Positions 39,747-63,599 of a stretch of DNA of 64,000 nucleotides are shown here, one piece after another. Each line of letters starts with the position of its first letter. Position 1 is the first letter of the stretch. Origin of the DNA: an uncultured Flavobacteriaceae bacterium (lineage in GTDB: Bacteria; Bacteroidota; Bacteroidia; Flavobacteriales; Flavobacteriaceae); contig CALGLR010000023.1 of the NCBI GenBank assembly GCA_937959395.1, forward strand, positions 40,281-104,280, in the 5' to 3' direction. A program made the position numbers and the translations under genes. The notes under the pieces are model-generated. The model made no database searches, was not told the origin of the DNA, and saw nothing but the letters and a program-made list of their open reading frames with translations.

Positions 39747-39775
39747 TTATGACACAAGTTTTAAATCTAAGTCAC
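39747..39775 (-). promoter_or_regulatory. ECF-type promoter motif 1 (TerB-like/USP)
   Basis: The minus strand reads GTGAC-TT...N15...GTGTC-ATAA. GTCAC sits at 39771-39775 and GACAC at 39751-39755 on the + strand. The distance to the TerB-like ATG is about 36 bp. It is one of eleven such sites. Confidence 0.75.
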
Positions 39776-39779
39776 TTTA

Positions 39780-39822
39780 AAAAAAAAACAGCAGTGACAT
39801 AAAATCAATACTGCTTTTTGAA
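39780..39822 (-). terminator. Terminator after the MscS gene
   Basis: AGCAGT and ACTGCT arms, extended by A/T pairs, close on a 14-nt loop. On the minus strand a run of T follows. It separates the MscS transcript from the TerB-like/USP transcript, whose promoter motif begins only a few bases further on. Confidence 0.65.
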
Positions 39823-39844
39823 CTACTTTATTTTTTAGAACTAA

Positions 39845-40675
39845 CTATTTTTCAATAATTTCTACTCTAGACTCCACAATATCTTTTATTGGTATGACAA
39901 CTTTACCTTTAGTTGTAGAAAGTGTCAAACAAATATTATCAATGGACTCAACAGTTCCTTCTAAATCATCAACTTTAATAGTATCACCCGCTTCGAAATT
40001 TTTCCTCGTATAAAAAGTACGAAGCAAATCAGCTATTATTTCGCGTGATCCTAGACCAAAACCTATAGCGATAGCAAGTAAGAACGCGCCTAAAATTACC
40101 GTCACATTATTTGTTATTACCCTTGTGTTTATACCAGCTTGATTCAAAGCTGTAATTGTGATGATAATTGCTATAATGTAAAATACAAGAGTGCTGATGA
40201 TTTTCGATCCTGCTAAATCGAAAGAATCGTAAAAACCTTGAATAGCCTTTTTAACAAATTTCGCAATGTATATACCCACCATAAAAAGGGCGATAGCACT
40301 AAATAATCTTGGTAAGTATCTTAATAAATTACCTATTTCTTTCGACACTATTTCCCAGTTCATTATATCTGAAGCTATAATCAAGAAAACAAGCATCATT
40401 ACCCATTTAACGAAAATGGTAATTACCTTGGTAATGCTAAATTTTATTTTTGAATCTCCAAAAACCTTTAACTCATTTAATTTTTGAGTTAGTTTATCAA
40501 CTTTAGCAAACTTTAATATTTTCCTCAATAAATAGATTACAAATTTGGTTATTAACCAACCTACTATTAAAACAACAATTGCTCCTAATAAGTTTTGTAA
40601 GGTGGGCACAAGTTTTTCTGTCCAACCAGATAGTGATTCCAAAGTTTTATTAGACATCTGTGATACTTTATCCAT
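39845..40675 (-). CDS. Mechanosensitive ion channel, MscS family
   Basis: This 276-aa inner-membrane protein has five or so TM helices. The pore-lining helix and beta domain read VTVILGAFLLAIAIGFGLGSREIIADLLRTFYTRKNFEAGDTIKVDDLEGTVESIDNICLTL, ending at VVIPIKDIVES. It is a short MscS without the large alpha/beta cytosolic C terminus and opens under membrane tension. It is 10 bp after the 63-aa gene, and the two are transcribed from the site at 40900-40928. Confidence 0.9.
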   Translation of the reverse strand: MDKVSQMSNKTLESLSGWTEKLVPTLQNLLGAIVVLIVGWLITKFVIYLLRKILKFAKVDKLTQKLNELKVFGDSKIKFSITKVITIFVKWVMMLVFLIIASDIMNWEIVSKEIGNLLRYLPRLFSAIALFMVGIYIAKFVKKAIQGFYDSFDLAGSKIISTLVFYIIAIIITITALNQAGINTRVITNNVTVILGAFLLAIAIGFGLGSREIIADLLRTFYTRKNFEAGDTIKVDDLEGTVESIDNICLTLSTTKGKVVIPIKDIVESRVEIIEK

Positions 40676-40685
40676 AATATATTAT

Positions 40686-40877
40686 TTAATCGGTTTTATT
40701 TATCTTTTTTGTTAAGAACATACTTGACAATGTTAATTTATAGTTTTTGGTAAATAAAGAAGCCATATCCATTAATAACTTAGCAGTTGAAACGTCTTTA
40801 ATAACCCTACTTCTTAATGTTTCTGGCACCTCTTTTGGAGGGTAGCCTATCATTTTAAACGGGTTTTCTTTTCTCAT
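40686..40877 (-). CDS. 63-aa protein, paralogue of the one at 40936-41127
   Basis: MRKENPFKMIGYPPKEVPETL, then RSRVIKDVSTAKLLMDMASLFTKNYKLTLSSMFLTKKI. It aligns along its length with the neighbouring 63-aa protein: the shared frame is K-E-V-P-x-x-L-(K/R)-x-(K/R)-V-x-x-(D/E)-(I/V)...D-(I/M)-A-(D/S)-L-F-T. A proline-containing lead is followed by an amphipathic helix that could bind a protein or the membrane surface. It is not in any family I know. It has its own ECF-type promoter site and is co-transcribed with the MscS gene. Confidence 0.7.
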   Translation of the reverse strand: MRKENPFKMIGYPPKEVPETLRSRVIKDVSTAKLLMDMASLFTKNYKLTLSSMFLTKKINKTD

Positions 40878-40899
40878 AAAAAGTACTTTTAATTAAAAT

Positions 40900-40928
40900 T
40901 TAAGACACAGATTAATCAAATAAGTCAC
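40900..40928 (-). promoter_or_regulatory. ECF-type promoter motif 2 (63-aa protein/MscS)
   Basis: The minus strand reads GTGAC-TT, 15 bp between boxes, then GTGTC-TTAA. GTCAC is at 40924-40928 and GACAC at 40904-40908 on the + strand. The distance from the second box to the ATG is about 27-31 bp. Confidence 0.75.
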
Positions 40929-40935
40929 TTATGCT

Positions 40936-41127
40936 CTAGTTTTCTTTATTTCGATCTCTCTTTTTTGATAAGAATACCTCCTCTAATAAAGTGGCAAACT
41001 TTACAGTAAAAAGATCTGCTATATCGCCAACTAAATCTATAGAAGCTATTTCTCCCATTACCTTCTTTTTTAATTCAGAAGGCACTTCTTTATTTGTTGA
41101 GATTTCTTTAAATGTATTCTTTTTCAA
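40936..41127 (-). CDS. 63-aa protein directly downstream of the sigma factor
   Basis: MKKNTFKEISTNKEVPSEL, then KKKVMGEIASIDLVGDIADLFTVKFATLLEEVFLSKKR. It begins 1 bp after the sigma-factor stop on the same strand, so it is translationally linked to it. It is a paralogue of the next 63-aa gene. A small protein always made with an ECF sigma factor is a natural candidate for a modulator or anti-sigma, but it has no zinc site or TM helix of known anti-sigma families. That role is only inferred from position. Confidence 0.7.
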   Translation of the reverse strand: MKKNTFKEISTNKEVPSELKKKVMGEIASIDLVGDIADLFTVKFATLLEEVFLSKKRDRNKEN

Positions 41128-41128
41128 A

Positions 41129-41764
41129 CTACTTTATTTTATCATGTTCTTCTATAACCCGAATTCGTGCTCTTTTTAATCGCATTTTTACAGCACTCTC
41201 ACCAACTTTTAATACTGCTTGTAACTCTTTTACAGAAACATCATCCTGGTATTTTAATAATAAGATTGCTTTATCTTCTGGATCAATATTATCCAATGCT
41301 TTTTCTAATTTTGATGCTTTTAATTCAAATAAATCTTCATCGTCTATATCTTCCATATTAGACAAACGATAATGGTGATCGTCCATAGAATCTGATTCAT
41401 CATTCATCTTACGTCCCTTATCCCTATTCACATAATTTGTACAAAAATTATAAGTAAAAGAATATAGCCAAGTTGAAAATTTAGCTTTTCCTTTAAAAGT
41501 ACTCAATTTAGTGAAAAGTTTTAAAAATACATCTTGAGTGAGGTCTTTTGCTTCATCTTCATTTCGGGCAAAACTGTAACACTTATTATATACTTTCTTG
41601 CTATAGCGATCGTAAAGTGTGCTAAAAAGTAAAGTGTTGTTTGTCGATACAATTTGATCCACCAATTCTTCATCAGATAATACTTTAGATTTACCTAAAA
41701 GACTATTGCTGGCACTGAAGAGGACTATAAAAATTTTATTTAAAAAGCTCATTTTAAGGGTCAC
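41129..41764 (-). CDS. ECF-subfamily RNA polymerase sigma factor (paralogue 1)
   Basis: This 211-aa sigma factor has region 2 at about 45-115 (FSTLYDRYSKKVYNKCYSFARNEDEAKDLTQDVFLKLFTKL, KFSTWLYSFTYNFCTNYV) and region 4 at about 150-205 (LLLKYQDDVSVKELQAVLKVGESAVKMRLKRARIRV). Region 3 is absent, as in ECF factors. It is closely related to the second sigma factor at 45302-45922, with near-identical region 2. It is the likely reader of the GTGAC-N15-GTGTC sites. No such site lies upstream of its own start, so it may not autoregulate. Confidence 0.93.
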   Translation of the reverse strand: MTLKMSFLNKIFIVLFSASNSLLGKSKVLSDEELVDQIVSTNNTLLFSTLYDRYSKKVYNKCYSFARNEDEAKDLTQDVFLKLFTKLSTFKGKAKFSTWLYSFTYNFCTNYVNRDKGRKMNDESDSMDDHHYRLSNMEDIDDEDLFELKASKLEKALDNIDPEDKAILLLKYQDDVSVKELQAVLKVGESAVKMRLKRARIRVIEEHDKIK

Positions 41765-41914
41765 AAAAATAAATTTATTAAAGTCTGTAAAGGTAAAATT
41801 TTATATGCCTTAAAACAGTAAAATTAACTAATACTTCTAATAATTAGTTTTTAACTCCTATTAAACCGAGGTATAGTTGAAAATAGCAAAACGAATTATT
41901 TAAAAAATGAACAG

Positions 41915-41943
41915 TGACTTAAATTAATATTTAGTGTCTAAAC
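41915..41943 (+). promoter_or_regulatory. ECF-type promoter motif 3 (decayed gene)
   Basis: GTGAC at 41915-41919 and GTGTC-TAAA at 41935-41943 are separated by 15 bp. The second box is 35 bp before an ATG at 41970 that now opens only a 42-codon frame. The bestrophin start is too far away (about 370 bp) to be the obvious partner unless read through. Confidence 0.7.
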
Positions 41944-43239: not shown

Positions 43240-43268
43240 GTGACCTATTTAGTTATTACGGGTCTTAA
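43240..43268 (+). promoter_or_regulatory. ECF-type promoter motif 4 (DUF2807 gene)
   Basis: GTGAC-CT at 43240-43246 and GGGTC-TTAA at 43260-43268 have 15 bp between boxes and one mismatch in the second box. The second box lies 55 bp before the ATG at 43315. Confidence 0.6.
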
Positions 43269-43314: not shown

Positions 43315-44142
43315 ATGAAAAAATTAATTCTATTTACAATAGCTATTGTATTAACAGTATCTTCTTATGCACAAAAAAAATCTAAAATAAAAGGAGACAA
43401 AAATGTGGTAACAACAGCTAACAATGTTCCCGATGGCTTTAACTTTCTAGAAATTGATGATGCACTAGAAATTACTATAAGCCAAAGTTCTAAGAATGCT
43501 TACACATTAACTACGGATAAAAACCTTCAAGATATTATTCAGTTTACAGTAAAAGATAGTGTTCTAAAAATATATACATCTCATAAAATTACGAGTAATA
43601 AAAAACTTGAAATAAGTCTAAATTTTATTAATCTAGAACACATTACCCTAAAAAATGATGCTAAGATTGAAAGCAAAGGACAGGTTGAGTCCAAGGTCTT
43701 ATACATAAATACATACAACTCTAGTAGGTTTGAAATAGATGCTAAGACAGAAGAATTAATAGTTACAATGCAACGTAATTCAGGCGGTAAATTAAAAGCA
43801 ACATCTACAAACACAACAATTATTATGAATGATAAAACAGATCTTAAAGCTAGCATAATTGCAGAAAAAACTACCGTAACCTTAACAAAAACTGCACAGC
43901 TAAATCTTGAAGGAAATTCTAATAACGTAGCTTTTAATTTAAAAGATTTTGCAGCGCTTGATGCTAAGAAAATGAAAGTATCATCTGTAGATTTATACAC
44001 ATCAAACAATGCAGATGTATATGTATATGCTGGGAAGAATTTAGAATTATATGCACAAGGTAATAGTAATATTTATGTATATGGAGATCCTAAAATAGAG
44101 ATAAAAGGATTAACAGATAAATCTAAAATCATAAAAAAATAG
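43315..44142 (+). CDS. Exported GIN-domain (DUF2807) protein
   Basis: This 275-aa protein has a signal peptide (LFTIAIVLTVSSYAQ) and a right-handed-helix-like repeat region typical of DUF2807 (head GIN domain). Strand runs such as GFNFLEIDDALEITISQSS, LEISLNFINLEHITLKNDAKIESKG and ADVYVYAGKNLELYAQGNSNIYVYGDPKIE are visible. It is probably located in the outer leaflet or periplasm; the function is unknown. A strong terminator follows. Confidence 0.8.
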   Translation: MKKLILFTIAIVLTVSSYAQKKSKIKGDKNVVTTANNVPDGFNFLEIDDALEITISQSSKNAYTLTTDKNLQDIIQFTVKDSVLKIYTSHKITSNKKLEISLNFINLEHITLKNDAKIESKGQVESKVLYINTYNSSRFEIDAKTEELIVTMQRNSGGKLKATSTNTTIIMNDKTDLKASIIAEKTTVTLTKTAQLNLEGNSNNVAFNLKDFAALDAKKMKVSSVDLYTSNNADVYVYAGKNLELYAQGNSNIYVYGDPKIEIKGLTDKSKIIKK

Positions 44143-45301: not shown

Positions 45302-45922
45302 ATGCAATTGTATAAACCTGTAACCTTAGTTTCTAAATTTGATAAAGAAGAGTCGCTCTATACATATTCTGATGAAGAATTAATTGAACAAATTCAACTT
45401 TCCGATACCACACTTCCTTTTTCTATTTTGTACGATAGGTATTCAAAAAAAATATATAATAAGTGTTACAGTTTTTCTAATAATCAATCGGAGGCAGAAG
45501 ATCTTACTCAAGATGTGTTTCTAAAACTTTTTACTAAACTACATACTTTTAAAGGGCAATCTAAATTTTCAACTTGGCTATATTCGTTTACTTATAACTT
45601 TTGCGTTAATTACGTGAATAGAGATAAAGGAAGAAAGCAATCTTTTATGACAGATTCTATAGACAATCACAAATATCGTTTGAGCGTTATGGAAGATATA
45701 AAAGATGAAGATCTTTTTGAATTACAGGTTAGCTTCCTTAAAAAAGCATTAGACAAAATAGCTCCAAAAGAAAAAGCTATTTTACTTTTAAAATACCAAG
45801 ATGATGTTTCTATAAAAGAATTGGAAGCACTCTTAGAAATTAACGAAAGTGCAGTAAAAATGCGCTTAAAAAGAGCACGAATTAAAGTTATGGAAGCTTA
45901 TGATAATCTCGAAGAAGATTAA
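45302..45922 (+). CDS. ECF-subfamily RNA polymerase sigma factor (paralogue 2)
   Basis: This 206-aa factor is closely related to the one at 41129-41764. Region 2 is almost the same (ILYDRYSKKIYNKCYSF, EDLTQDVFLKLFTKLHTFKGQSKFSTWLYSFTYNFCVNYVNRDKGRK). Region 4, LLLKYQDDVSIKELEALLEINESAVKMRLKRARIKV, is shared but less strictly. The N terminus is different. TGTCTGTCTAAAT at about 45256-45268 resembles half of the regulon motif, but no GTGAC box stands 20 bp before it. With such a like region 2 and 4 both paralogues probably read the same or overlapping promoters. Confidence 0.93.
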   Translation: MQLYKPVTLVSKFDKEESLYTYSDEELIEQIQLSDTTLPFSILYDRYSKKIYNKCYSFSNNQSEAEDLTQDVFLKLFTKLHTFKGQSKFSTWLYSFTYNFCVNYVNRDKGRKQSFMTDSIDNHKYRLSVMEDIKDEDLFELQVSFLKKALDKIAPKEKAILLLKYQDDVSIKELEALLEINESAVKMRLKRARIKVMEAYDNLEED

Positions 45923-46533: not shown

Positions 46534-46561
46534 GTGACTTTTTAAAAAAAGTGTGTCTTAA
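46534..46561 (+). promoter_or_regulatory. ECF-type promoter motif 5 (ion-homeostasis operon)
   Basis: GTGAC-TT at 46534-46540, 14 bp between boxes, GTGTC-TTAA at 46553-46561. The second box is 59 bp before the ATG at 46612. Confidence 0.78.
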
Positions 46562-46611: not shown

Positions 46612-48981
46612 ATGCAAAAAAATCAATCATTAGCAGTAAGTGATTTGTTTACTTCAAAAATGTTTCTCAAACAGCTTGAAGAATATTTAGAGACATTATC
46701 TACTCTTGATTCTAGAGAAGGGCTGAAAAAACATATTAGAGAAGATTTTATTGGGCTTTCTAATTATTATATAGCCATAGGAAATCAAGAATTTGAACGA
46801 GTAGACGATTCTCTTAATATTGACGAAGTCTATTTATTACATTTTGCATTTCCAGAAACATTTAAAGATGTTTTCTTATTACATAGAGATGTGATACTGC
46901 AATTACAAATAGCAGTTGCTAAAGAACTTGAAGGCAATACAGATGGAGCTTCTGCTAAAAATCATTTGGACCATTCTATTAAAATGTTAATTGAAGCAAC
47001 ACAATATTCTATAAACCATGTGAATGAAGAGCGACGAGCTATTTATAATTCTGAAAAAGGGAACAAGAAATTATTGAATAGTATCAAACATAAAGATAAT
47101 GCTTGGCCAATTTATAAGAAACAATTTAAAGACATAGCAATTCAAATTAAGGAAATTAATGAGAGCCATTCATCCGTAAATAGAACAATTAAATCTCTTA
47201 AAAGCATTAATTTACATACTATAGATACGGTTTTCGTAAATACAAACGCATCTCAAACGATTATAAAACGACTAGGAGAAACCATCAAGTCTATTAACAA
47301 GATGGAATCTACAAATGATATTACAAAATTAATTACTTGGATAGATTGTAACATTATTGAGAGTTCTAATGATCAAGAACAGTCCGATTTCACTAAGATT
47401 CTAGAAGAAAAAGTAAAAACACTTACGGCTACAAACATCCCAGTAGATACTGAAAACGGAATTTTACTCGCTAGACAAATAGACTTTAATAAGGCAGTTA
47501 AGAAATGGTTTGATTTTGAAATCATCCCATTATTTATTGACTTATGGGAACAAATAAAAACTATGGAAACGTTTTTTAACCACAGTTTATTAAATCTAAA
47601 AAGCAGCTTGCTAGTTGAGAAGAGTAATGATACCCTAGATGCTTTGCCTTCTCAGTTACAAACACTTAAAAGTGTGCATCAAACGCTCACTAAAAGTGAT
47701 GAAGTACTACATAAAATAGCAAAAGAAATAGTTTCTAAAATAGAGCAAAAACTTCAAGCATCTCAAATTTATAGCAATAAGGAATTTTTAGAAGTTTCTA
47801 TACAATCCTCATTATATCAATTTGCTAATAATCAAGGAAATATTTTTACTAATGCTAAAAATAAAATCACGAAAAAAATTACTTCTATAAATTCTAAGTA
47901 TGAAAATGGCGCATTATTTTCTAACCTGAGTAAGGTAGATCAATCTATTTCTTGTATTTCACATAGAATGTTTAAAGAAGTAAATGCCCATTATGACACT
48001 TTATTTCTGAATAAGAATTTCATAGGTGATCTATTTCTTATACCAAGAAAATTACAGAAATTCGCTTTCGCGAAAGCGAAAACCGATTGGGATAATGGTT
48101 TTAATAAAGCGGTTATTATAAACGGAGCGCCTTTAAGCGGAACTTCTACATTTTTACAAACAGTTGCCCAAGAGTACTTTAAAAAAAACACTGTTTTCTT
48201 AACAGTAGATACTGTTATTCCTTTTGAAGGGAGAAAAATACAAACAACGAGAAATTTAAACGATGCGCTTAAAGACATAAAAAAAAATCTTTCGGGATCG
48301 AAGCCATTATTGGTGATTGATACATTAGAGTTATGGCAAGATGAAAAACAGTCATTATTGGAAAACACAAGAGCTTTATTACGTTTTATAGAATCTGAAT
48401 CAGACAATGTAATGGTGGTTGTTAGTATATCGAGGCAAATGCAAAAACAATTAGACCGGCGTATACGTTTTACTGATGGTTTCAGTACCACTATTACCTT
48501 AGACAAAGCTTCTTTTGAAGAAATTTACAAGGGATTTTTAATGAGGCACGGTGCATCACATAAGATACTTGTTTCAGAAAAAAAAGAAATACTTTCTAAT
48601 AAACGAATAGAATCAAATCTATTAAAACTGGCTAGAGATTGCCAATATAACATAGGTGAAGTATTACAATCTTGGACATATGGCACTACAATTATCGAAA
48701 ACAACCAAGTTATTTATGAGTACAAAAGATTATCGTTCAAGGACTTCTTTATTGCTGAAGAGCTCATTATTCTAAAATTTGTTTTTCTCAATAAAGAAAC
48801 AAATGAATTAAGGTTAATAACTTATTTTGGGACGCAATTTGAAACTAAGTACAAATCGAGTCTTAAACGAATGATAAATCTTAAAGTGTTACTTAGAAAT
48901 CAACAAGCTAAATTATACATTAATCCTGTAGTAATAAATGACATCAAAGATATTTTAATCTATAGAGGCACACTAAGCTAA
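46612..48981 (+). CDS. Large P-loop NTPase-like protein with degenerate Walker A
   Basis: I do not recognise the family of this 789-aa protein. Residues 1-480 are helical with charged coiled-coil-like stretches and no TM helix. A P-loop NTPase-like domain begins at about 495: NGAPLSGTSTFLQTVAQ (505-521) in the place of Walker A, where the invariant Lys is Thr511, then PLLVIDTLELWQD (Asp570) as Walker B and VMVVVSISRQ as a sensor strand. The C-terminal 180 residues look like winged-helix/STAND-type tail (LKLARDCQYNIGEVLQSWTYGTTII). Without the Lys it may bind but not cleave ATP. It overlaps the next gene by 1 bp and leads an operon of four whose other members are all channels or transporters. 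A 20-bp palindrome lies within codons 484-490. Confidence 0.75.
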   Translation: MQKNQSLAVSDLFTSKMFLKQLEEYLETLSTLDSREGLKKHIREDFIGLSNYYIAIGNQEFERVDDSLNIDEVYLLHFAFPETFKDVFLLHRDVILQLQIAVAKELEGNTDGASAKNHLDHSIKMLIEATQYSINHVNEERRAIYNSEKGNKKLLNSIKHKDNAWPIYKKQFKDIAIQIKEINESHSSVNRTIKSLKSINLHTIDTVFVNTNASQTIIKRLGETIKSINKMESTNDITKLITWIDCNIIESSNDQEQSDFTKILEEKVKTLTATNIPVDTENGILLARQIDFNKAVKKWFDFEIIPLFIDLWEQIKTMETFFNHSLLNLKSSLLVEKSNDTLDALPSQLQTLKSVHQTLTKSDEVLHKIAKEIVSKIEQKLQASQIYSNKEFLEVSIQSSLYQFANNQGNIFTNAKNKITKKITSINSKYENGALFSNLSKVDQSISCISHRMFKEVNAHYDTLFLNKNFIGDLFLIPRKLQKFAFAKAKTDWDNGFNKAVIINGAPLSGTSTFLQTVAQEYFKKNTVFLTVDTVIPFEGRKIQTTRNLNDALKDIKKNLSGSKPLLVIDTLELWQDEKQSLLENTRALLRFIESESDNVMVVVSISRQMQKQLDRRIRFTDGFSTTITLDKASFEEIYKGFLMRHGASHKILVSEKKEILSNKRIESNLLKLARDCQYNIGEVLQSWTYGTTIIENNQVIYEYKRLSFKDFFIAEELIILKFVFLNKETNELRLITYFGTQFETKYKSSLKRMINLKVLLRNQQAKLYINPVVINDIKDILIYRGTLS
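48061..48080. repeat. Perfect 20-bp palindrome, copy 1
   Basis: TTCGCTTTCG followed by its exact inverse. The 14-bp core GCTTTCGCGAAAGC is the same as at 57819-57838. Here it encodes F-A-F-A-K-A-K inside the P-loop protein. Confidence 0.9.
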
Positions 48982-49697
48982 TGGAAACAATAGAAAATAT
49001 ACATACCTGGAAAGGTTTTTTAGCATTACTTATTCTACTAATAGCTTTTTATTGGCTACTAAAAGTCCTTGTATATGCTACGGAACGTTTTATAAAAAAA
49101 AACGTAACTAATAGAAAAATTTTAAATCGACTAAATAAGATAGTTTTATTTTTCAAGCCTTTTTCGGTTGTATTACTGTTACTTGATTTTATCTCTATTA
49201 ATCCTGTAAATCATGGTATTTTTCTTATTGTGATAGGTGTATTTGGCTTCAAGCATATCAATAATTATGTCAATGGTATAGTATTAAAGGTAAACCCTTT
49301 AATTAAAGAACGTGCTATTATAGAATCCAATACATTTCAAGGAGAAATAAAGCAAATGTTACCATTTGGTTTGGTTATAAATAATGAAGCAGGAGAACGG
49401 TACATTAACTATTCGAAAATTGAGCAAAAAGGATTCTCTATTAAATCTAATGAGCATAGTCTTTTAAGGCAAACCTTGTATATAAAATCTCAATTATCTA
49501 AAGATGCGATTCTAGATATGTTGTTTGATAATCCCATATTAAATAACCAAGATTTTCCAACTGTAGAGTCCTCAGATCAAGACCAAGTCTTTAAACTTAA
49601 GTATTCATTAGAAAACGGAGCTTCTTCAGAAGATTTAGTTGCTTTCCTAAAAGAAAAAAACATCACTACTAACAAAACACTCAACACAATTAACTAA
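48981..49697 (+). CDS. Divergent MscS-like membrane protein
   Basis: This 238-aa protein has three TM helices (about 13-35, 52-72 and 76-96), then a small beta domain (INNYVNGIVLKVNPLIKERAIIESNTFQGEIKQMLPFGLVINNEAGERYINYSKIEQKG) in the position of the MscS beta domain. The glycine/alanine pore helix pattern of MscS is weak. The C-terminal tail is alpha-helical (DAILDMLFDNPIL, then a coiled segment). It overlaps the P-loop gene (TAATG) and the antiporter gene (TAATG) at its two ends, so all three are translationally coupled. Confidence 0.65.
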   Translation: METIENIHTWKGFLALLILLIAFYWLLKVLVYATERFIKKNVTNRKILNRLNKIVLFFKPFSVVLLLLDFISINPVNHGIFLIVIGVFGFKHINNYVNGIVLKVNPLIKERAIIESNTFQGEIKQMLPFGLVINNEAGERYINYSKIEQKGFSIKSNEHSLLRQTLYIKSQLSKDAILDMLFDNPILNNQDFPTVESSDQDQVFKLKYSLENGASSEDLVAFLKEKNITTNKTLNTIN

Positions 49698-50965
49698 TGG
49701 AAATATTAAATTCATATAACATCATTATTGCAGTATCTGTTATTATTATTGTATCATTTTTATTCAATAGTCTTTCGAAAAAAACAAATGTTCCCGCGGT
49801 ACTTATGCTTATTGTTTTTGGAGTTGGTCTTCAATACCTATTAAAGCATTTTAATACTGGAGAAATGAAATTTCTACCTATTCTGGAAGTGCTTGGCATT
49901 GTAGGATTAATAATGATTGTACTAGAAGCTGCATTAGAGTTAGAACTTAAACGCGAGAAATTAATACCTATTTTAAAATCGTTTGCAATAGCTATTATAG
50001 GTCTAATTGCTTCGGCTTGGATTGCAGCAATAATTCTCTATAATTTCATTCCAGAAATGACAATGCCATCCGCTTGGCTATATGCCACACCGTTATCAAT
50101 ACTTTCCAGTGCTATTATTATACCAAGTGTAAGTGGATTAAAAGCGTATAAGAAAGAATTTCATATTTACGAAAGCACCTTTTCAGATATTGTAGGCATT
50201 ATGATGTTTTACTTCCTCACAGGTAGGTTAAATCCAGCTGAAGACTCTGGAGTTATAGGGTTCACAGGCAATATTATATTAACGATTATAATTTCATTAG
50301 TAGCCAGTTACGCTTTGATTCTAATATTTCAGAAAATAAAAAGTCAGGTTAAATTATTCCTTTTAATCGCAGTATTACTTTTACTATACGCATTAGGTAA
50401 AAAAATGCACCTATCTTCTCTTATTATAATCTTAATTTTCGGGTTAGTTATTGCAAATATGAAGTTGTTTTTTGCAGGAAAACTAAGTAAATTTTTACAT
50501 TTTGAAAAAGCGCATCACATATACCACGAACTGCATACGATCACAGCAGAAACTGCTTTTGTAGTGCGCACTTTTTTCTTCGTAGTTTTTGGTATTACAA
50601 TAGTGGTCTCATCGTTATTTAATATAGAAGTAGCCATAATAAGTACTTTAATTATCGCATCTATTTATGTGATTAGATTTGTTGTTTTAAGAATATTTGT
50701 TGGAAAAGATATTCTCCCTCAGCTTTTCATTGCTCCTAGAGGCTTAATTACAGTACTCTTGTTTTATGCTATTCCAGCAGAAGCTCAAATAGCCACTTTT
50801 GAACCAGGTATATTACTGTTTGTCATCATTGGAACTAGTTTGATTATGACAGGCGCAATGATATATGACAAAAAGCGTAGTTCAAAGGCTATAAATATAG
50901 CTAATAAAAACCAAGTAAAGACTGTGAAGTGGAAAGCTCCGGGGATTGAGGAAAACAACAACTAA
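49697..50965 (+). CDS. CPA-type cation/proton antiporter
   Basis: This 422-aa integral membrane protein of the monovalent cation:proton antiporter superfamily has about twelve TM helices. Membrane helices with conserved features include VLGIVGLIMIVLEAALELEL (charged mid-helix), ESTFSDIVGIMMFYFL (S-D-I in the ion site) and FIAPRGLITVLLFYAIPAE (R-G-L-I-T-V, the conserved P-R-G of the last helices). There is no TrkA-N tail. It exchanges Na+ or K+ for H+. It is coupled to both neighbours. Confidence 0.88.
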   Translation: MEILNSYNIIIAVSVIIIVSFLFNSLSKKTNVPAVLMLIVFGVGLQYLLKHFNTGEMKFLPILEVLGIVGLIMIVLEAALELELKREKLIPILKSFAIAIIGLIASAWIAAIILYNFIPEMTMPSAWLYATPLSILSSAIIIPSVSGLKAYKKEFHIYESTFSDIVGIMMFYFLTGRLNPAEDSGVIGFTGNIILTIIISLVASYALILIFQKIKSQVKLFLLIAVLLLLYALGKKMHLSSLIIILIFGLVIANMKLFFAGKLSKFLHFEKAHHIYHELHTITAETAFVVRTFFFVVFGITIVVSSLFNIEVAIISTLIIASIYVIRFVVLRIFVGKDILPQLFIAPRGLITVLLFYAIPAEAQIATFEPGILLFVIIGTSLIMTGAMIYDKKRSSKAINIANKNQVKTVKWKAPGIEENNN

Positions 50966-50970
50966 TTTCT

Positions 50971-51804
50971 ATGGAAACAGCACCTAAAAAACATTCTTGG
51001 AAAGTAAAACTATACAGTGTTGTCCATTCAACTAATACAAAGCAAGGAAAGGTTTTTAACCTTTTCTTGTTTGTCCTTATTATTATCAGTGTCATTTATG
51101 TATTACTAGAAAGTGTAGATACTATTGATAAAAAATACCACCCATATATGGTGACAGCAGAATGGATAATAACCATTTTATTTTCAATAGAATACATTTT
51201 AAAAGTCATAAGCATTGATAAACCTAAGCGCTATATTTTTAGTTTTTATGGGATCATAGATCTACTCTCTACATTGCCATTATATTTATCATATTTCTTT
51301 TCAGGAGGCTCTACTTTTCTTGCGCTACGAGCATTACGATTATTTCGAGTATTTAGAATTTTAAAACTTGTAAAGTATATGGGTGAAGCAAATACTTTAT
51401 CTAAAGCATTAGTAGCGTCTCGTCTTAAAATAAGTATCTTTATTTACATCGTTCTTATTATGTGCGTTATAATGGGGTCTATTATGTACATCGTAGAAGA
51501 GGATGCAAATTCTGGTTTTAGTAGTATTCCTAAAAGTATTTATTGGACTATTGTAACCATTACAACTGTAGGCTACGGAGATATTGCACCAGCAACAAAT
51601 TTAGGACAAGCAATTGCAAGTTTTATAATGATATTAGGGTACGGTATCATTGCAATCCCTACAGGTATTGTTACTTCTGAAATGGCAAAAACAAGAGTAG
51701 ATAAAAACTCAGTAAAATCGCATGTTTGTAATAAATGTGGTGCAACTAATCATCCTGTCGATGCTAAGTATTGTCACGGTTGTACTTCAATACTTCCACA
51801 CTGA
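50971..51804 (+). CDS. Voltage-gated-like potassium channel with C-terminal zinc ribbon
   Basis: This 277-aa six-TM channel has an S4-like helix LRALRLFRVFRILKLVKYM with regularly spaced Arg/Lys. The pore is YWTIVTITTVGYGDIAPATNLGQ (T-V-G-Y-G-D filter), followed by S6 (FIMILGYGIIAIPTGIV). The last 25 residues hold CNKCGATNHPVDAKYCHGC, a Cys4-type zinc-ribbon knuckle that is uncommon on Kv channels. It may sense redox or zinc. It starts 5 bp after the antiporter stop and ends the operon. Confidence 0.92.
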   Translation: METAPKKHSWKVKLYSVVHSTNTKQGKVFNLFLFVLIIISVIYVLLESVDTIDKKYHPYMVTAEWIITILFSIEYILKVISIDKPKRYIFSFYGIIDLLSTLPLYLSYFFSGGSTFLALRALRLFRVFRILKLVKYMGEANTLSKALVASRLKISIFIYIVLIMCVIMGSIMYIVEEDANSGFSSIPKSIYWTIVTITTVGYGDIAPATNLGQAIASFIMILGYGIIAIPTGIVTSEMAKTRVDKNSVKSHVCNKCGATNHPVDAKYCHGCTSILPH

Positions 51805-52769: not shown

Positions 52770-52798
52770 GTGACCTCTTACAAAAAGAGGTGTCCTAA
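52770..52798 (+). promoter_or_regulatory. ECF-type promoter motif 7 (CNNM/transporter), with internal hairpin
   Basis: GTGAC-CT at 52770-52776, 15 bp between boxes, GTGTC-CTAA at 52790-52798. The second box lies 33 bp before the ATG at 52823. The interval between the boxes holds an inverted repeat (ACCTCTT/AAGAGGT), 9 bp after the serine-hydrolase stop. Confidence 0.75.
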
Positions 52799-52822: not shown

Positions 52823-53833
52823 ATGCAATATATAATAGTAACAGGCTTAATTATTTTATCTGCTTGTTTTAGTGGATTGACATTGGGCTTTTTTAGCCTT
52901 AATGTAACGTCTTTACAACGTAAGATAAAATTAGGCGATGCCAGAGCGGCAAAGGTTTACCCTATTCGTAAACGAGGTAATTTATTACTGTGCACCTTAC
53001 TTGTAGGCAATGTAGCAGTAAATGCGACTGCCGCCATATTTCTTGGAGAGATTGCAAGCGGCTTAATAGCTGGTATAGTCTCTACAATACTCATTGTCAT
53101 ATTTGGAGAAATCTTACCTCAAGCCTTTTTCTCACGGCACGCCTTAACTCTGGGAGCTAAATCGGTTTGGTTAGTAAAGACTTTTATATTCTTAATGTAC
53201 CCAATCGCATACCCCTTGTCTTTAGCATTAGATAAATTGCTAGGAGAAGAAATGCAAACGATCTGGAGTAAAAAAGAAATCAAAGAAATAATTAAACACC
53301 ACGAAAACAATGAAGGTTCTGATATTGACAAAGATGAAGAACGTATTTTATTAGGAGCACTTTCTTTTTCTGAAGTTAATGTTAAAAAAGTGATGACGCC
53401 CAAACCTGTTTTATACACTTTAGAAAAAAGCACACTCTTAACCCAAGAAAGGCTACTTGAGATTCGTGATAAAGGGTTTACAAGAATTCCAATCTATAAA
53501 GATACTGAAGACAACTTGATTGGTACACTTTATTCTAAAGACCTCATTGGAATTATTGATAAAAACAAAACGGTAGAAGACTTTTTAAGTAAAAAAAAGC
53601 CAATTACCATAAAAGACACAATGTTACTAGATGGGTTAATGAATCATTTTATAACTAAAAAAATACATATTGCCTTTGTATATGATATGTACAGTACGTT
53701 TATTGGTATTGTGACACTTGAAGATATTATTGAAGAAATACTAAAAGTCGAAATCGTTGATGAAGGTGATGTTGTTGAAGATATGCAACATCTGGCCATC
53801 GAAAAATCGTTAAAAAACCTACTAGACGAATAA
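52823..53833 (+). CDS. CNNM/DUF21 membrane protein with two CBS domains
   Basis: This 336-aa protein has three or four TM helices of the CNNM (DUF21) domain (about 1-145, with LGFFSLNVTSLQRKIKLGDARAAKVYPIR and GNVAVNATAAIFLGEIASG), and FGEILPQAFFSRHAL. A CBS pair follows (about 190-310: VMTPKPVLYTLEKS, FVYDMYSTFIGIVTLEDIIEEIL). Homologues move Mg2+ or act as Co2+/Mg2+ efflux. The C-terminal CorC_HlyC domain is missing, so this is the short CNNM form. It lies 5 bp before the transporter/HEAT gene. Confidence 0.9.
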   Translation: MQYIIVTGLIILSACFSGLTLGFFSLNVTSLQRKIKLGDARAAKVYPIRKRGNLLLCTLLVGNVAVNATAAIFLGEIASGLIAGIVSTILIVIFGEILPQAFFSRHALTLGAKSVWLVKTFIFLMYPIAYPLSLALDKLLGEEMQTIWSKKEIKEIIKHHENNEGSDIDKDEERILLGALSFSEVNVKKVMTPKPVLYTLEKSTLLTQERLLEIRDKGFTRIPIYKDTEDNLIGTLYSKDLIGIIDKNKTVEDFLSKKKPITIKDTMLLDGLMNHFITKKIHIAFVYDMYSTFIGIVTLEDIIEEILKVEIVDEGDVVEDMQHLAIEKSLKNLLDE

Positions 53834-53838
53834 ATTAA

Positions 53839-56658
53839 ATGCTGAAAAATACTATAAAAAGGATTTTTGATATCAGAGAGGGAGAGCTTAAAGTTGCTTT
53901 CTTAATGCAGGCATACATCTTTTTAATTATCGCTACTTTACTTATTATTAAACCAACGATTAACGCCTTATTTATTTCAGAATTAGGAGCAGAAAGTCTT
54001 CCGTATGCCTATCTTTTTGTTGCTATTATAGCAGTAATCACTTCATATCTCTATTCGAGAACTACTGAGCGTTTTTCTATACTTACTATTTTAAGGTTTA
54101 CACTTTTATTTTCAGCTATTTCTCTAGTGGTATTGGCAACACTTTTACACTTAAACTTAATTAAAGGCTGGGTATTATATGTCTTTTACGTTGGTGTTGC
54201 TATTTATGCAGTATTAGCCACTTCACAGTTTTGGGTGTTGGCAAATGTAGTTTTTAATGTACGTGAGGCAAAGCGATTATTCGGTTTTATAGGTGCTGGA
54301 GCTATTACTGGAGGCATTTTTGGAGGCTATCTTACATCACTTTTGGCACCAACTATAGGCAACGAGAATATTATTTATATTGGTGCATTTTTATTGTTAT
54401 TGTGCTTTCCCATATTATCTAAATTATGGAAAACTCGTGTATCACAACTCAATATTTTTAAGAAAAAGAAACGTACTGATGTCCCTTTAGACAATCCTTT
54501 AAAATTAATAAAAAGCTCAAAGCATCTAACTTATTTAGCAGCCATTATGGCTATAGGCGTTCTAATTGCTAAATTAGTAGATTACCAATTCAGCTTTATA
54601 GCTGCTAAAAAAATAACAGACAGTGATGAGTTAACTGCATTTTTTGGTTTCTGGTTATCTAGCTTTAATGTGATTTCCTTGTTACTGCAATTATTCTTAA
54701 CTCGAAAAATAGTTGGGGTTTGGGGTGTTGGCTTTTCTCTATTGTTATTACCTATTCTTATTTTTATAGGAGGGCTATTGTTTTTTGTATTCCCAGAACT
54801 TTGGGTGGTCATTATATTAAAGGCGACAGATGGTAGTTTAAAGCAGTCTGTTCATAAATCGGCAATAGAGTTGATAGCCCTGCCATTGCCGCTTCAGCTT
54901 AAGAAAAAAACAAAATCGTTTATAGATGTTGTCGTAGACAGTATAGCAACTGGTATTGCTGGTTGTATTCTTATTTTCTTAATCAAAGGATTAGATGTTT
55001 CAGAAGAGTATATTATAGGATTCATTATTCTTCTAACAATAATATGGACCTACTTTATATTAAAAGTTAGAAAAGAATACTTCTTAACTTTTAGACGCAA
55101 CTTAGATCATTTAGAAACTGCTAAAAATAGAAAAATAAAGAAGGTTACTAAAGATTCTTTTTTAGCAGGAATGGAACGTGTTTTTCGAGAAGGTGAAGAA
55201 AATGAAATACTTTTTATGCTTAATAAAGCAAAAGAAGTTAATGATAAAAGACTTACCGAGCCAATTATAGCATTGTTAAAACATCCTTCAAATGCTGTAA
55301 AAACGGCAGTGTTAAAAAATTTATTTTATCTTAATGAAGGCAGTATGGCTATTGAAGCCCATCAGCTTTTAAAAACTCATGACGATGGTGTCGTTATGGC
55401 GGCTTTAGAGTATTTATTGCTCCATGCCGATAGAGAGGAATCTATTATTTTCGACAATTATCTGGATGACCCTAATGACTATATATCTGGAGCATCTCTT
55501 ATGTGCTTGGCCAAAGAATCAAGAGATAATCCAATACTTAGAGCTAAGTACGAGTTATACAACCGAATAGAGCGCAAAGCGATTCATATAGAAAATTTAA
55601 CTGAAGACCATAATGAAAAAGAACGCATTGAACTTATTGAAATTATTGGTCTAGCTGATTATAAAAAGCGCTATAAAGATATTCTTAAAGCAATGTCCCA
55701 CTCTAATATATTACTAAAAAACACAGCAATAAAGGCTGCAGGGAATACGCTCAATGAGTTTTTTATTAAGCATTTGTTAGAACTACTACTGGACAGAGCA
55801 CATAGGTCGAATGCACAAGAGGCTCTGGTTAATTATGGACCGTCAATACTTCAATTATTATATATAAAACAAGAAAATAAAGATGCCCCTATTGAATTAC
55901 GACGCGCAATACCTCAAACTATGGCTTTGTTTGGCTCGCAATTGGCAGTAAAAACTTTATTTGATGTCTTTATTAATTCTGAAGATCTTACGATTCGACT
56001 AGAGAGTGTGACAGGATTACTAAAATTGAAATACGATAATCCAAAATTACATTTTGACAAGAATAAATTAGCACAACTCATTCTTGACGAGTGCAAAATA
56101 TATGATCACACTCTTATTGCGATGCATACTCAAATTATTGTGCATTACTTGAAGCGAAAAAAACTCAAACAATCTATTTCAGATAAAGAACTTGATGCAC
56201 GTGATAGCTTAATGGAGCTATTAGAACGCCGGTTAGATTCTGGTTTGCAACGCATTTTCAAGCTTTTAGAACTCAAGTATTCTGAAAAAGATATACAGAT
56301 GGCCTATAAAGGTATTTTAAGTGATAATCAAGAAAAGCGAACTAATGCGATAGAATTCTTGGACATTATGCTAAACCCTAATCTCAAGAACGCATTAATT
56401 CCTATTATAGAATCTACTATTTTGGATACGTCTTCAGAAGAAGTGATCGCATCAATAAGTAAAAATAGATACACAGAGTTTGAGTGCTTTGACACCATTT
56501 TAAAAGGCAAAGATTTAAGGCTTAAATTAGCTGTGTTGTTCTTAATAGAGCAATTAGCTGATGGCTCATATTTACAGCTTGTCGAAAGATTATTAAACGA
56601 TGACAATGAAAAAATAAAAAGCTTTGCGAAAAACGCATTTCAAGCGATACTATCATAG
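53839..56658 (+). CDS. Nucleotide-transporter-like (NTT/Npt) membrane domain fused to HEAT repeats
   Basis: The 939-aa product is a fusion. Residues 1-410 have twelve TM helices of the ADP/ATP (Npt1/Npt2-type, MFS-like) transporter family: LIIKPTINALFISELGAESLPYAYLFVAIIAV at the start, FGFIGAGAITGGIFGGYLTS, then FIAAKKITDSDELTAFFGFWLS and ATDGSLKQSVHKSAIELIALPLPLQLKKKTKSFIDVV. Residues about 430-939 are at least nine HEAT-like repeats with pairs of 15-20-residue helices. The family transports nucleotides in parasites, but free-living bacteria have forms with HEAT tails of unknown substrate. It is the second gene of the CNNM operon and is closed by a long bidirectional terminator. Confidence 0.82.
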   Translation: MLKNTIKRIFDIREGELKVAFLMQAYIFLIIATLLIIKPTINALFISELGAESLPYAYLFVAIIAVITSYLYSRTTERFSILTILRFTLLFSAISLVVLATLLHLNLIKGWVLYVFYVGVAIYAVLATSQFWVLANVVFNVREAKRLFGFIGAGAITGGIFGGYLTSLLAPTIGNENIIYIGAFLLLLCFPILSKLWKTRVSQLNIFKKKKRTDVPLDNPLKLIKSSKHLTYLAAIMAIGVLIAKLVDYQFSFIAAKKITDSDELTAFFGFWLSSFNVISLLLQLFLTRKIVGVWGVGFSLLLLPILIFIGGLLFFVFPELWVVIILKATDGSLKQSVHKSAIELIALPLPLQLKKKTKSFIDVVVDSIATGIAGCILIFLIKGLDVSEEYIIGFIILLTIIWTYFILKVRKEYFLTFRRNLDHLETAKNRKIKKVTKDSFLAGMERVFREGEENEILFMLNKAKEVNDKRLTEPIIALLKHPSNAVKTAVLKNLFYLNEGSMAIEAHQLLKTHDDGVVMAALEYLLLHADREESIIFDNYLDDPNDYISGASLMCLAKESRDNPILRAKYELYNRIERKAIHIENLTEDHNEKERIELIEIIGLADYKKRYKDILKAMSHSNILLKNTAIKAAGNTLNEFFIKHLLELLLDRAHRSNAQEALVNYGPSILQLLYIKQENKDAPIELRRAIPQTMALFGSQLAVKTLFDVFINSEDLTIRLESVTGLLKLKYDNPKLHFDKNKLAQLILDECKIYDHTLIAMHTQIIVHYLKRKKLKQSISDKELDARDSLMELLERRLDSGLQRIFKLLELKYSEKDIQMAYKGILSDNQEKRTNAIEFLDIMLNPNLKNALIPIIESTILDTSSEEVIASISKNRYTEFECFDTILKGKDLRLKLAVLFLIEQLADGSYLQLVERLLNDDNEKIKSFAKNAFQAILS

Positions 56659-56670
56659 CTCATATACATC

Positions 56671-60976: not shown

Positions 60977-61005
60977 TTGAGACACTATTCCTTTATTGAG
61001 GTCAC
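60977..61005 (-). promoter_or_regulatory. ECF-type promoter motif 8 (PEP-synthase-like operon)
   Basis: The minus strand reads GTGAC-CT, 15 bp between boxes, GTGTC-TCAA. On the + strand GTCAC is at 61001-61005 and GACAC at 60981-60985. The second box lies about 26-30 bp before the start. Confidence 0.75.
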
Positions 61006-61138: not shown

Positions 61139-61167
61139 GTGACCTTTTAAAAATAGTTGTGTCTAAA
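61139..61167 (+). promoter_or_regulatory. ECF-type promoter motif 9 (97-aa protein)
   Basis: GTGAC-CT at 61139-61145, 15 bp between boxes, GTGTC-TAAA at 61159-61167. The second box lies 35 bp before the ATG at 61194. The divergent motif 8 is 134 bp to the left. Confidence 0.77.
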
Positions 61168-61193
61168 TTATTATGTAATAGTTAATCATTAAA

Positions 61194-61487
61194 ATGAATC
61201 TTCAAAATTTTAAAAGCACGGCCAAAAAAAACATTGATGAAATTGATGAAAAAATAAGTGTTCTTAGAAATACAATAGAATATAATTTTAATGGAGACTA
61301 TTTTCAATTACAGTTAGAACTTAATGAGTGTGAACTTAAAAAAGATGACCTAATTAGAAAATATTACAAATTCACAGTAAGCAAAAATTCTGAATATGAG
61401 AAACAAGTACGTTCATTTAAAAGTAGTCAAGATTTGTTGAAAGACAAATTATTAAGAATAGAGGATAGTATCTTTTATGATTCATAA
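61194..61487 (+). CDS. 97-aa coiled-coil protein, unknown
   Basis: MNLQNFKSTAKKNIDEIDEKI, then helical heptads (EYNFNGDYFQLQLELNECELKKDDLIRKYY, SKNSEYEKQVRSFKSSQDLLKDKLLRI). There is no signal or TM helix, so it is cytosolic. The family is not recognised. The promoter motif just upstream argues that it is a real gene of the regulon. Confidence 0.65.
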   Translation: MNLQNFKSTAKKNIDEIDEKISVLRNTIEYNFNGDYFQLQLELNECELKKDDLIRKYYKFTVSKNSEYEKQVRSFKSSQDLLKDKLLRIEDSIFYDS

Positions 61488-61528
61488 CACGAACTAGACT
61501 TTATTTAAAAATACTTTTCAAATTAGGA

Positions 61529-61557
61529 GCGACTTATAAATCTATACCTTGTCTTAA
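61529..61557 (+). promoter_or_regulatory. Weaker ECF-type promoter motif 10 (RimK-like operon)
   Basis: GCGAC-TT at 61529-61535, 15 bp between boxes, TTGTC-TTAA at 61549-61557. Each box has one mismatch against the rest. The second box lies 125 bp before the ATG at 61674, further than the others. Confidence 0.45.
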
Positions 61558-61673
61558 ATACTTATAAAGCATTAATAAAATGCTCTCATAGCTTACATCA
61601 CTTAATAGCTTTAATTATCTCCAATAGTGTTATACAGAACCTACAGTTTTTTTAACAATTAAACAATTTAAAT

Positions 61674-62549
61674 ATGAAATTAGTAGTACTATCAGCAAAT
61701 CCCAATCTGTATTCTACCAAAAGATTGGTAGAGGCTGGTGAAAAAAAAGGCCACGAAATGTTGGTCATTGACCATACTAAATGTGATTTGGTCATCGAAA
61801 AAAAGAAACCAGCTATTATTTATAAAGGAACTGAAATTACGGGTGTTGATGGCGTAATACCAAGAATTGGAGCCTCTGTTACATTTTTTGGGACAGCCGT
61901 GGTAAGACAATTTGAGATGATGAAGGTTTTTAGTGCCACAGAATCACAAGCATTGGTAAGATCTAGAGACAAGCTTAGAAGTTTGCAAATTTTGTCGAGA
62001 GCTGGTTTGGATTTACCTAAAACCGTTTTTAGTAACTATTCAAAAGATGTAAGTAGTGTTGTTGAAAAGGCAGGCGGGGCACCTTTGGTGATTAAGCTTT
62101 TAGAAGGAACACAAGGTATTGGTGTTGTTTTGGTAGATACTAATAATTCTGCAGAATCAATACTGGAAGCATTTAATGGTTTACAAGCTCGTGTGATTGT
62201 TCAGGAATTTATTAAAGAAGCAAAAGGCGCTGACTTAAGAGTGTTTATTGTAGATGGTGTTGTCGTTGGAGCAATGAAGAGGCAAGGAAAAGAAGGAGAA
62301 TTTAGGTCAAATTTACACCGAGGGGGATCTGCCGACATTATTGAACTTTCAGACGCGGAAGAAAACGCTGCATTAAAAGCTGCAAGAGTTATGGGACTTG
62401 GTATTGCTGGCGTAGATATGTTACAATCTGAGCGAGGCCCTTTAATATTAGAAGTTAACTCTTCGCCAGGATTAGAAGGGATTGAGACGGCCACTGGTAA
62501 AGATATTGCAAGTCAAATAATTAAATATATGGAGAGAAATGCAGAGTAA
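61674..62549 (+). CDS. RimK-family ATP-grasp (alpha-L-glutamate ligase type)
   Basis: This 291-aa protein has the RimK-type N-terminal pre-ATP-grasp domain (about 1-90, with [24 protein letters not shown]). An ATP-grasp domain follows: [22 protein letters not shown] (Lys in the A-strand), [21 protein letters not shown], and [27 protein letters not shown] with the Glu/Asn metal ligands. RimK ligases add Glu to a C terminus or to small molecules. It overlaps the following gene by 11 bp, and the pair is known in many bacteria. Confidence 0.93.
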
Positions 62550-63510
62550 GGATATTGAAGTTTTAGGGCAATCCATTTCTATGGGAAAAGGGTTACAAAT
62601 TAAACTAGATATTGCCAAACTGCATACCCGTACCAAAATTGAAGTACCCGTTATTATTGAACGTGCAAAAGAACCTGGACCAACTATTTTAATTACTGCT
62701 GGCATTCATGGTGATGAAGTAAATGGGGTCGAAATTGTAAGACAAATAATAGCTAAAGGCTATAATAAACCTCAAAAAGGGATGGTGATTTGCATACCAG
62801 TGGTTAACGTTTTTGGCTTTTTAAGTCTGCGGCGAGAATTTCCTGATGGAAGAGACTTAAATCGTGTATTTCCAGGATCTAAAGGAGGTTCTTTGGCAAG
62901 CATTTTTGCGTATCATTTAATGAAAGAAATTGTACCTCTAGCCGATTATTGTTTAGATTTTCATACCGGAGGCGCAAATCGATTTAATGCAGCACAAATA
63001 AGAATCAATGAAGGAGATGCCGAAAGTTTAGAATTAGCAAAAACTTTTGGAGCTCCATTTATTATGCAATCAAAACAACGAGAGAAATCGTATCGAGAAT
63101 CGGCCATTAAACTAGGCAAAAAAGTCTTGCTTTTTGAAGGAGGGAAATCTCTTGATATTAACAGGTCTATAACTCGCAGTGGTGTTCACGGAGCGCTAAA
63201 AATAATGCATAGTTTAGGTATAAGAGATTTTCAAAAAGAGCTAAAAAAAGGATCTAAAAAAGAGGTGCCACCTATAATTATAGAAAAATCACGTTGGATA
63301 AGAGCAAGACATTCTGGTATGTTTCGTACTAATGCTGTACTTGGTAAATTATATAATAAAGGAGATAAAATTGGTAGCATTTCAGATCCATTTGGATATT
63401 TTGAAAGAGACATAAAGGCTCCGAATTCCGGCTATATATTTTGTATAAATCATACACCAATAGTTAATAAAGGTGATGCTATCATACATATAACCAAAGA
63501 TAAAGATTAA
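62539..63510 (+). CDS. Succinylglutamate desuccinylase/aspartoacylase-family metallocarboxypeptidase
   Basis: This 323-aa zinc enzyme of the M14-like AstE/ASPA branch has the metal sites [11 protein letters not shown] (His57, Glu60) and LDFHTGG (about 148-154), plus [15 protein letters not shown] before the second. A catalytic Glu lies near [13 protein letters not shown]. Its start overlaps the ATP-grasp stop by 11 bp, so the two are coupled. A likely role is to remove what the ligase adds, or to process a related N-acyl amino acid, but this is an inference. Confidence 0.92.
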
Positions 63511-63570
63511 TGATATTTCTTATTTCAAGCATTAAAAGCCTTTTTCGAAATTCCTAAAATTATAACAACT

Positions 63571-63599
63571 GTGACTTTTGCAAAAATGGTGTGTCTTAA
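63571..63599 (+). promoter_or_regulatory. ECF-type promoter motif 11 (LapA-like gene)
   Basis: GTGAC-TT at 63571-63577, 15 bp between boxes, GTGTC-TTAA at 63591-63599. The second box lies 51 bp before the ATG at 63642. The context is almost identical to motif 5. Confidence 0.78.

Follow-up and report, generated by a model that had tools for sequence, protein, structure and literature searches.

A GTGAC-N14/15-GTGTC element is the likely promoter of a widespread Flavobacteriaceae ECF sigma family and defines a putative stress island

Extracytoplasmic function (ECF) sigma factors of the RpoE, SigW and SigX types use promoters laid out as a -35 and a -10 box, and the general stress response of Alphaproteobacteria is formed by EcfG-NepR-PhyR, in which an ECF sigma factor for stress genes is accompanied by a partner of about 60 amino acids (aa). 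Near Bacteroidetes ECF sigma factors a class I anti-sigma domain is found in 6% of cases, against 32% overall, and other anti-sigma classes have been suggested, while a very short helical partner of an ECF sigma factor is exemplified by CnrH with its class II anti-sigma factor CnrY (both from excerpts of PMC7406223). Within the Flavobacteriaceae, the ECF motif SM6 of Flavobacterium psychrophilum was derived from mapped transcription starts, and has a CGT box, its targets being type IX secretion genes and Band-7 proteins (excerpts of PMC9723704); the main text of that paper, as distinct from its supplements, is free of the terms GTGAC, GTGTC, mechanosensitive, aquaporin, LysM and dodecin. Here we consider a 64-kb stretch of DNA from an uncultured Flavobacteriaceae bacterium (the window; C23:40281-104280 of a 4.3 Mb genome, its right end being the contig end), in which a GTGAC-N14/15-GTGTC element recurs around two ECF sigma genes. 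The element is very likely the -35/-10 promoter of a widespread Flavobacteriaceae ECF sigma family, and since two sigma genes lie inside the island it defines, the island would be switched on as a single stress regulon. No prior description of the motif, the regulon or the partner protein discussed below was found in the literature that was searched, as judged by titles and the openings of abstracts.

A pattern scan of the window finds nine exact GTGAC-N14/15-GTGTC pairs, all within 39751-63595 and none in the first 39 kb; shuffled sequences give a mean of 0.08 and at most 1. When the window is scored with an independent weight matrix, derived from 141 sites in 34 other genomes, exactly ten sites emerge, of at least 21.4 bits each, with nothing further above 14 bits and a maximum of 8.8 bits in six first-order Markov shuffles. 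The ten sites, and one degenerate candidate, are:

39751..39775, minus strand: exact element, 24.0 bits, before the TerB-like/USP genes
40904..40928, minus strand: exact element, 30.5 bits, before a ~60-aa protein and MscS
41914..41938, plus strand: exact element, 22.1 bits, before a decayed gene
43240..43264, plus strand: the tenth site, one mismatch (second box GGGTC), 21.4 bits, before the DUF2807 gene
46534..46557, plus strand: exact element, 32.2 bits, before the P-loop/p238/CPA/Kv operon
51822..51845, plus strand: exact element, 26.1 bits, before a serine-hydrolase (Beta-lactamase2) gene
52770..52794, plus strand: exact element, 27.1 bits, before the CNNM and TLC/HEAT transporter genes
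60981..61005, minus strand: exact element, 26.2 bits, before an exported PPDK_N protein and a second serine hydrolase
61139..61163, plus strand: exact element, 30.8 bits, before a 97-aa protein and possibly RimK/AspA too
63571..63595, plus strand: exact element, 28.7 bits, before a LapA-like gene at the contig end
61529..61553, plus strand: degenerate candidate GCGAC-N15-TTGTC before RimK, uncounted

A first-pass annotation of this DNA had described eleven such copies, absent from the first 37 kb and with second boxes mostly 30-60 bp before start codons, and had proposed that the motif be scored with a position matrix and be compared with its frequency by chance. The scans above agree with it on the empty first part and show an excess of the pairs over shuffled sequence. 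Its count comes down to nine exact sites and one with a single mismatch, the eleventh being a two-mismatch sequence that scores below 14 bits and lies 120 nt before the listed RimK-like start; the RimK-like gene may instead be transcribed by read-through of the 97-aa gene, from the element at 61139. The spacing holds in slightly altered form: the second box stands 25-54 nt before the next listed start at eight of the ten sites, and at the remaining two an ATG lies 31 nt off, at 51822 downstream of a listed TTG start that is 4 nt off, and at 41914 as the ATG of the decayed gene, the next intact gene being 366 nt off.

The two sigma genes lie among these sites, on either side of a regulator gene.

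41129..41764, minus strand: ECF sigma factor A, sigma1-type clade by tree, Sigma70_r2 and r4_2
44325-45029: Crp/Fnr-type protein, between the two sigma genes
45302..45922, plus strand: ECF sigma factor B, sigma1-type clade by tree, Sigma70_r2 and r4_2, without a ~60-aa partner gene

Their close relationship, asserted in the first-pass annotation, is borne out by 72% identity over residues 21-204, the remaining 16 sigma-like matches in the genome reaching at most 29%. Both proteins match the Pfam models of sigma70 regions 2 and 4 and lack region 3, the composition that defines an ECF sigma factor, and they score 94.7 and 95.6 bits with the ECF superfamily model (cut-off 42.9). This model excepted, they do not reach the curated cut-off of any sub-family in the best 25 listed, and with the Bacteroidetes FecI-type model Sig70_bacteroi1 (TIGR02985) they reach 79.4 and 83.6 bits against a cut-off of 126.4. 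In a tree of 44 hand-picked rows both fall within the sigma1 clade (support 97/89).

The element co-occurs with these sigma factors across 299 sampled Flavobacteriaceae genomes, 99 with an ortholog of the window sigma and 200 without. That this family is Flavobacteriaceae follows from its members G164 and G176, whose site coordinates coincide with those of Croceivirga and Croceitalea genomes. The sigma set comprises 97 genomes at E <1e-40 and two at 1e-32 to 1e-34, a boundary drawn after the results were known, with the best genome outside it at 2e-27. The element is present in 128 of the 299 genomes (per-genome counts were transferred by hand into the cross-table, and the total agrees), which divide into 95 of the 99 sigma genomes, where 431 sites are counted and the reversed control gives 39, and 33 of the 200 others, whose 42 sites against 74 for the control make them background. 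At least three sites are carried by 66 of the 99 sigma genomes and by two of the 200 others, and these two are assemblies 76 and 82% complete whose genus-mates hold the sigma. Where the two sampled genomes of a genus differ in the sigma, as in 11 genera, the genome that holds it is ahead in number of sites in ten genera and level in one, the margin being a single site in six of the ten; the present genome has 15 sites and its genus-mate G138, which lacks the sigma, has 0. Could the element nevertheless be read mainly by another ECF sigma factor here, with the island sigmas as co-inherited passengers? The genome offers 16 distant sigma-like matches as candidates and both island sigma genes lack an upstream element, but the low identity of those 16, the background element counts of genomes without a close ortholog, even though a more distant sigma-like match is present in many of these, and the presence of the element before members of this same sigma family in other clades make such an arrangement very unlikely.

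In their surroundings, too, the sites resemble promoters. Their context was read in 34 sigma genomes among the matches listed, where regions were obtained for 140 of the 142 listed sites and 144 site readings, three of them repeats from overlapping regions, represent 141 distinct sites. Outside open reading frames (ORFs) of at least 100 aa lie 138 of the 144 readings, compared with 851 of 2800 random positions, and an ORF start follows 15-120 nt downstream on the same strand in 112 of the 144, compared with 35 on the opposite side. The third base after GTGTC is A in 136 of the 141 sites, and 16-17 bp separate GAC and GTC. We thus find two boxes at a fixed spacing, upstream of starts and tied to a sigma factor, as in an ECF promoter, and such boxes are read as -35 and -10. 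That the element is instead the site of a transcription factor, for example of the Crp/Fnr-type protein, with a GTGA-like half-site repeated about two helical turns apart, draws on the position of that gene between both sigma genes and on the GTG-C that the two boxes have in common, beginning 19-20 bp apart. Such a site is extremely unlikely, however, given that the element is directional and oriented toward starts, that its presence tracks the sigma gene in the 299 genomes, that the A at the third base after the second box is nearly invariant, and that, at E 1e-10, nothing matches the Crp/Fnr protein in the loci compared (L295-L306), which are mostly element-bearing Aquimarina and Arenibacter islands.

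Within the present genome there are 15 exact sites (none for the reversed pattern), nine in the window, five on C44:24490-41493 and one within argS, so that the intergenic ones are confined to two islands. The argS site (C16:49917) was rejected as regulatory and is regarded as chance because it lies in coding sequence; a match in genome G153 likewise falls within a long, argS-like ORF. Sites with one mismatch do not exceed background, with eight beyond the exact ones, the window's tenth included, against ten for the reversed pattern. The C44 island has four MscS channels in its surroundings, and by eye its stretch also encodes CorA-, Dps-, TerC-, USP-, RimK-, CPA2- and arginine-decarboxylase-like proteins, most of which have homologs in the islands of Aquimarina latercula or Aquimarina muelleri. 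Six of the 12 MscS genes of the genome lie in the window island and C44:24.8-47.2 kb, which jointly make up some 1% of the genome; a single one of these six is outside the outermost C44 site. Beside this second island, C44:18-23 kb (L016 1-5000) encodes small membrane, peptidoglycan-binding and peptidase-like proteins that look phage-like by eye. A mobile element flanking both the C44 island and an A. latercula island was considered and rejected, there being no homology at E 1e-5.

The Aquimarina islands repeat this arrangement. A. latercula has 23 exact sites, 14 of them in C1:1033961-1081492, eight in C4:97118-132137 and one elsewhere. In the loci compared, 38 of 45 window and C44 proteins are matched at E 1e-10, mostly in the A. 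latercula and A. muelleri islands; those without a match are the window USP, Crp/Fnr and 97-aa proteins and the C44 proteins p91, p121, OMP and OmpA. In A. latercula exact sites precede both DUF2807 counterparts, the CNNM counterparts of both islands, the P-loop operon counterpart of island 1 and one of the two closest TerB genes, the counterpart of the C44 MscS is preceded by the element, and a LapA gene similar by eye has a GGGTC-type site, while in A. muelleri an exact site precedes the counterpart of the PPDK_N protein. A tRNA-Arg(ACG) gene (L298 4542-4616) lies immediately left of the second A. latercula island.

Which genes lie behind the element elsewhere in the family? A first gene was assigned to 133 of the 141 sites and eight had none, the one-gene-per-site assignment being mechanical and in some cases wrong, and one member of each gene cluster was run against Pfam. 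The commonest target, at 20 sites in 17 genomes, is a LysM/BON cluster, which we take to be Kbp; the member run matches LysM, with BON just below the cut-off. There follow DUF2853 (seven), the primary sigma factor RpoD (six), M48 peptidase (six), OmpA (five), dodecin (five), an MscS cluster (three, plus one MscS-like singleton by eye), the aquaporin AqpZ (two), DUF937, DUF4197 and DUF1508 (two each) and MscL (one). That the primary sigma gene has an element in front of it in six genomes is suggestive of a global response, not a local one. The sigma gene is itself a target in 18 of the 34 genomes, with the element 24-113 nt upstream in 17 and 483 nt in one, and sites near a sigma1-type gene at its locus number three in Arenibacter and three and two in Kordia. 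Ten Maribacter/Eudoraea-type matches before the sigma core, along with GTTTC variants in Allomuricauda relatives, were rejected as self-regulation because they are in frame and encode MTFLxxLC or similar.

Some family sites have no evident gene behind them. Nine of these (loci L167, L177, L194, L198, L211, L244, L247, L249 and L282, in eight other genomes) are followed by a predicted RNA of 50-80 nt with GCUAUU near its start and an intrinsic terminator at its end; at gathering scores Rfam does not match the predicted RNAs. Overall, 27 of 214 sites have an early terminator behind them, compared with 82 of 1400 random positions. In genome G113 the minus strand of L305 3260-4621 carries nine copies of the element in tandem, eight of them exact and one of the GGGTC type. 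No ORF was found to follow them, and a terminator is scored 70-127 nt downstream in eight of the nine, so that this is possibly a sigma-driven small-RNA array.

The sigma genes of this family have a constant companion. Two copies lie in the window:

40936..41127, minus strand: ~60-aa partner directly after sigma A, TTG start; six-frame profile match 1.9e-20, its sequence being included in the profile
40686..40877, minus strand: second ~60-aa partner, behind site 40928; profile match 1.9e-23, its sequence being included in the profile

Among 134 sigma genes, a figure that includes the same genome under two names, 131 have a protein of 38-72 aa whose start falls no more than 20 nt ahead of, or 12 nt beyond, the sigma gene end, and two of the three without one are cut by the end of the locus. 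The partner occurs in 96 of 97 close-sigma genomes and 0 of 202 others, and is thus adjacent and co-inherited in the manner of a sigma/anti-sigma pair. In the phylum it is found in 11 of 345 genomes (eight Flavobacteriaceae and three of other families), and at the two readable loci outside Flavobacteriaceae it once more stands behind the gene of a related sigma (identities of 45 and 39%). An alignment of 26 of 114 distinct copies, hand-picked, with the two from the window, gives a conserved core of NPF...VPxELKxKVMxDI. At E 0.001 the partner matches 806 proteins, of which the 120 listed are named hypothetical or uncharacterised and shown with no Pfam domain, and it matches no Pfam or NCBIfam family; Pfam gives weak matches such as HAAS (0.014 in three of 28 members), and the sole match among PDB sequences is a non-significant one to fibrinogen (E 0.35). 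It has neither the known domain nor the zinc motif of class I anti-sigma factors, Cys being present in 12 of 131 copies, and no sequence similarity to NepR or class II anti-sigma factors was found in the Pfam and PDB comparisons. Hydropathy exceeds 1.6 in 20 of 131 copies, so the protein is not clearly membrane-spanning, and its predicted structure is one helix over residues 19-59 (mean pLDDT 79, pTM 0.40).

From its place beside the sigma gene and its co-inheritance with it we propose that the partner is the cognate, soluble anti-sigma factor. It might instead act as a helper of the sigma factor, as a co-activator, a stabiliser or a link to the membrane, which its want of significant similarity in Pfam, NCBIfam and PDB sequences and the missing C-terminal half of the Kordia copies would allow; against this stands the gene order, a sigma gene followed by a small overlapping or abutting partner being the usual sigma/anti-sigma layout, and the helper role, though a good deal less than assured, is quite possible. 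In A. latercula the gene order is sigma1, partner, element, sigma2, partner, MscS, and in the window sigma A, partner, element, partner, MscS. The window locus lacks the sigma2 gene that stands ahead of the A. latercula counterpart of the second partner, and since both window sigmas are of the sigma1 clade, sigma2 appears to have been lost from its usual slot.

Several observations weigh against a promoter read by this sigma family and a partner that restrains it. Four of the 99 sigma genomes have no element, and in the cross-table phylogeny is taken into account in the 11 within-genus pairs only. The sigma A and sigma B genes are both without an upstream element, as are the two LysM/BON relatives of this genome. 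A clear element is present in 28 of the 120 distinct regions upstream of sigma genes, a coding coincidence in ten, an ambiguous match in one and nothing in 81, in a sample skewed both ways, 80 loci being those nearest to sigma B and some others having been taken because they bear sites; it leans to Allomuricauda/Maribacter relatives, whose apparent matches are coding. Self-regulation of the sigma would accordingly be limited to some clades. The partner was not detected for sigma B, for sigma genome G123 or for the diverged G046 and G268. A fused model, reading both genes in frame, gave no sigma-partner interface (pTM 0.36), so that the case for an anti-sigma role comes from the order of the genes and their co-occurrence.

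The link between element and sigma, which the first-pass annotation had drawn by inference, is now supported by the co-occurrence, the genus pairs, the sites upstream of sigma genes themselves and the Aquimarina islands, and direct recognition and binding of the element by the sigma factor is what these patterns suggest. The C44 island, the family-wide core regulon, the ~60-aa partner and the lack of an element before the window's own sigma genes had escaped that annotation. As to mechanism, the partner would hold the sigma inactive until a signal frees it, most likely osmotic, ionic or membrane stress, because the targets include MscS, MscL, AqpZ, cation exchangers and channels. In clades with the element before the sigma-partner pair, release would be self-reinforcing; here the self-regulated sigma2 is absent from its slot, and a second sigma1-type copy stands alone at 45302. 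Taken as a whole, this would be a general or osmotic stress sigma system of Flavobacteriaceae in which a soluble anti-sigma factor of a new ~60-aa class holds the ECF sigma, with self-amplification in some clades. It would act on channels, on RpoD, on small RNAs and on a LysM/BON protein of the K+-binding type, and in Aquimarina-type genomes it would be gathered in stress islands, a tentative proposal for which the case is nearly balanced.

The window genes at the sites, so far as they were assigned, are:

39287..39715, minus strand: TerB-like protein (Pfam TerB, 4e-8)
39845..40675, minus strand: MscS channel, MS_channel domains
43315..44142, plus strand: DUF2807 protein (Pfam, 1e-29)
46612..51804, plus strand: putative operon of a 789-aa protein, a 238-aa protein, a Na+/H+ exchanger and an ion channel
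52823..56658, plus strand: CNNM/CBS protein and TLC/HEAT transporter (Pfam)

The 46612..51804 genes probably form an operon, to judge from their spacing, and the 789-aa protein has a weak AAA_14 match below the cut-off. Between the convergent TLC/HEAT and serine-hydrolase genes lies a perfect 23-bp inverted repeat with 2 nt between its arms (56669-56716), likely a bidirectional terminator. At the left island edge, 36990-37045 resembles by eye a tRNA 3' half (CAT anticodon), no intact tRNA having been found, and 37829-38320 resembles a transposase remnant (IS66-like by eye). Rfam gives no match at gathering scores in window 36500-64000.

A sigma factor, its likely promoter, a list of targets and a candidate partner come together here in a system that roughly one in three of the 299 sampled genomes has, culturable strains included. 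With ECF sigma factors of the RpoE, SigW and SigX types it shares the possession of regions 2 and 4 only, two short promoter boxes, a downstream partner and, in some clades, self-regulation, but it differs in a partner without a known anti-sigma domain and in a regulon borne on islands. SM6 is likewise an ECF-type motif in Flavobacteriaceae, but with a CGT box and other targets (excerpts of PMC9723704). CnrY is likewise a very short helical partner of an ECF sigma factor (excerpts of PMC7406223), whereas the present partner has no PDB match but fibrinogen and is not clearly transmembrane. In common with EcfG-NepR-PhyR there is an ECF sigma factor for stress genes together with a partner of about 60 aa; in this case, however, NepR is not among the Pfam matches of 28 partners at E 10, PhyR not having been searched for, and the likeness is one of a stress-gene sigma factor paired with a small protein.

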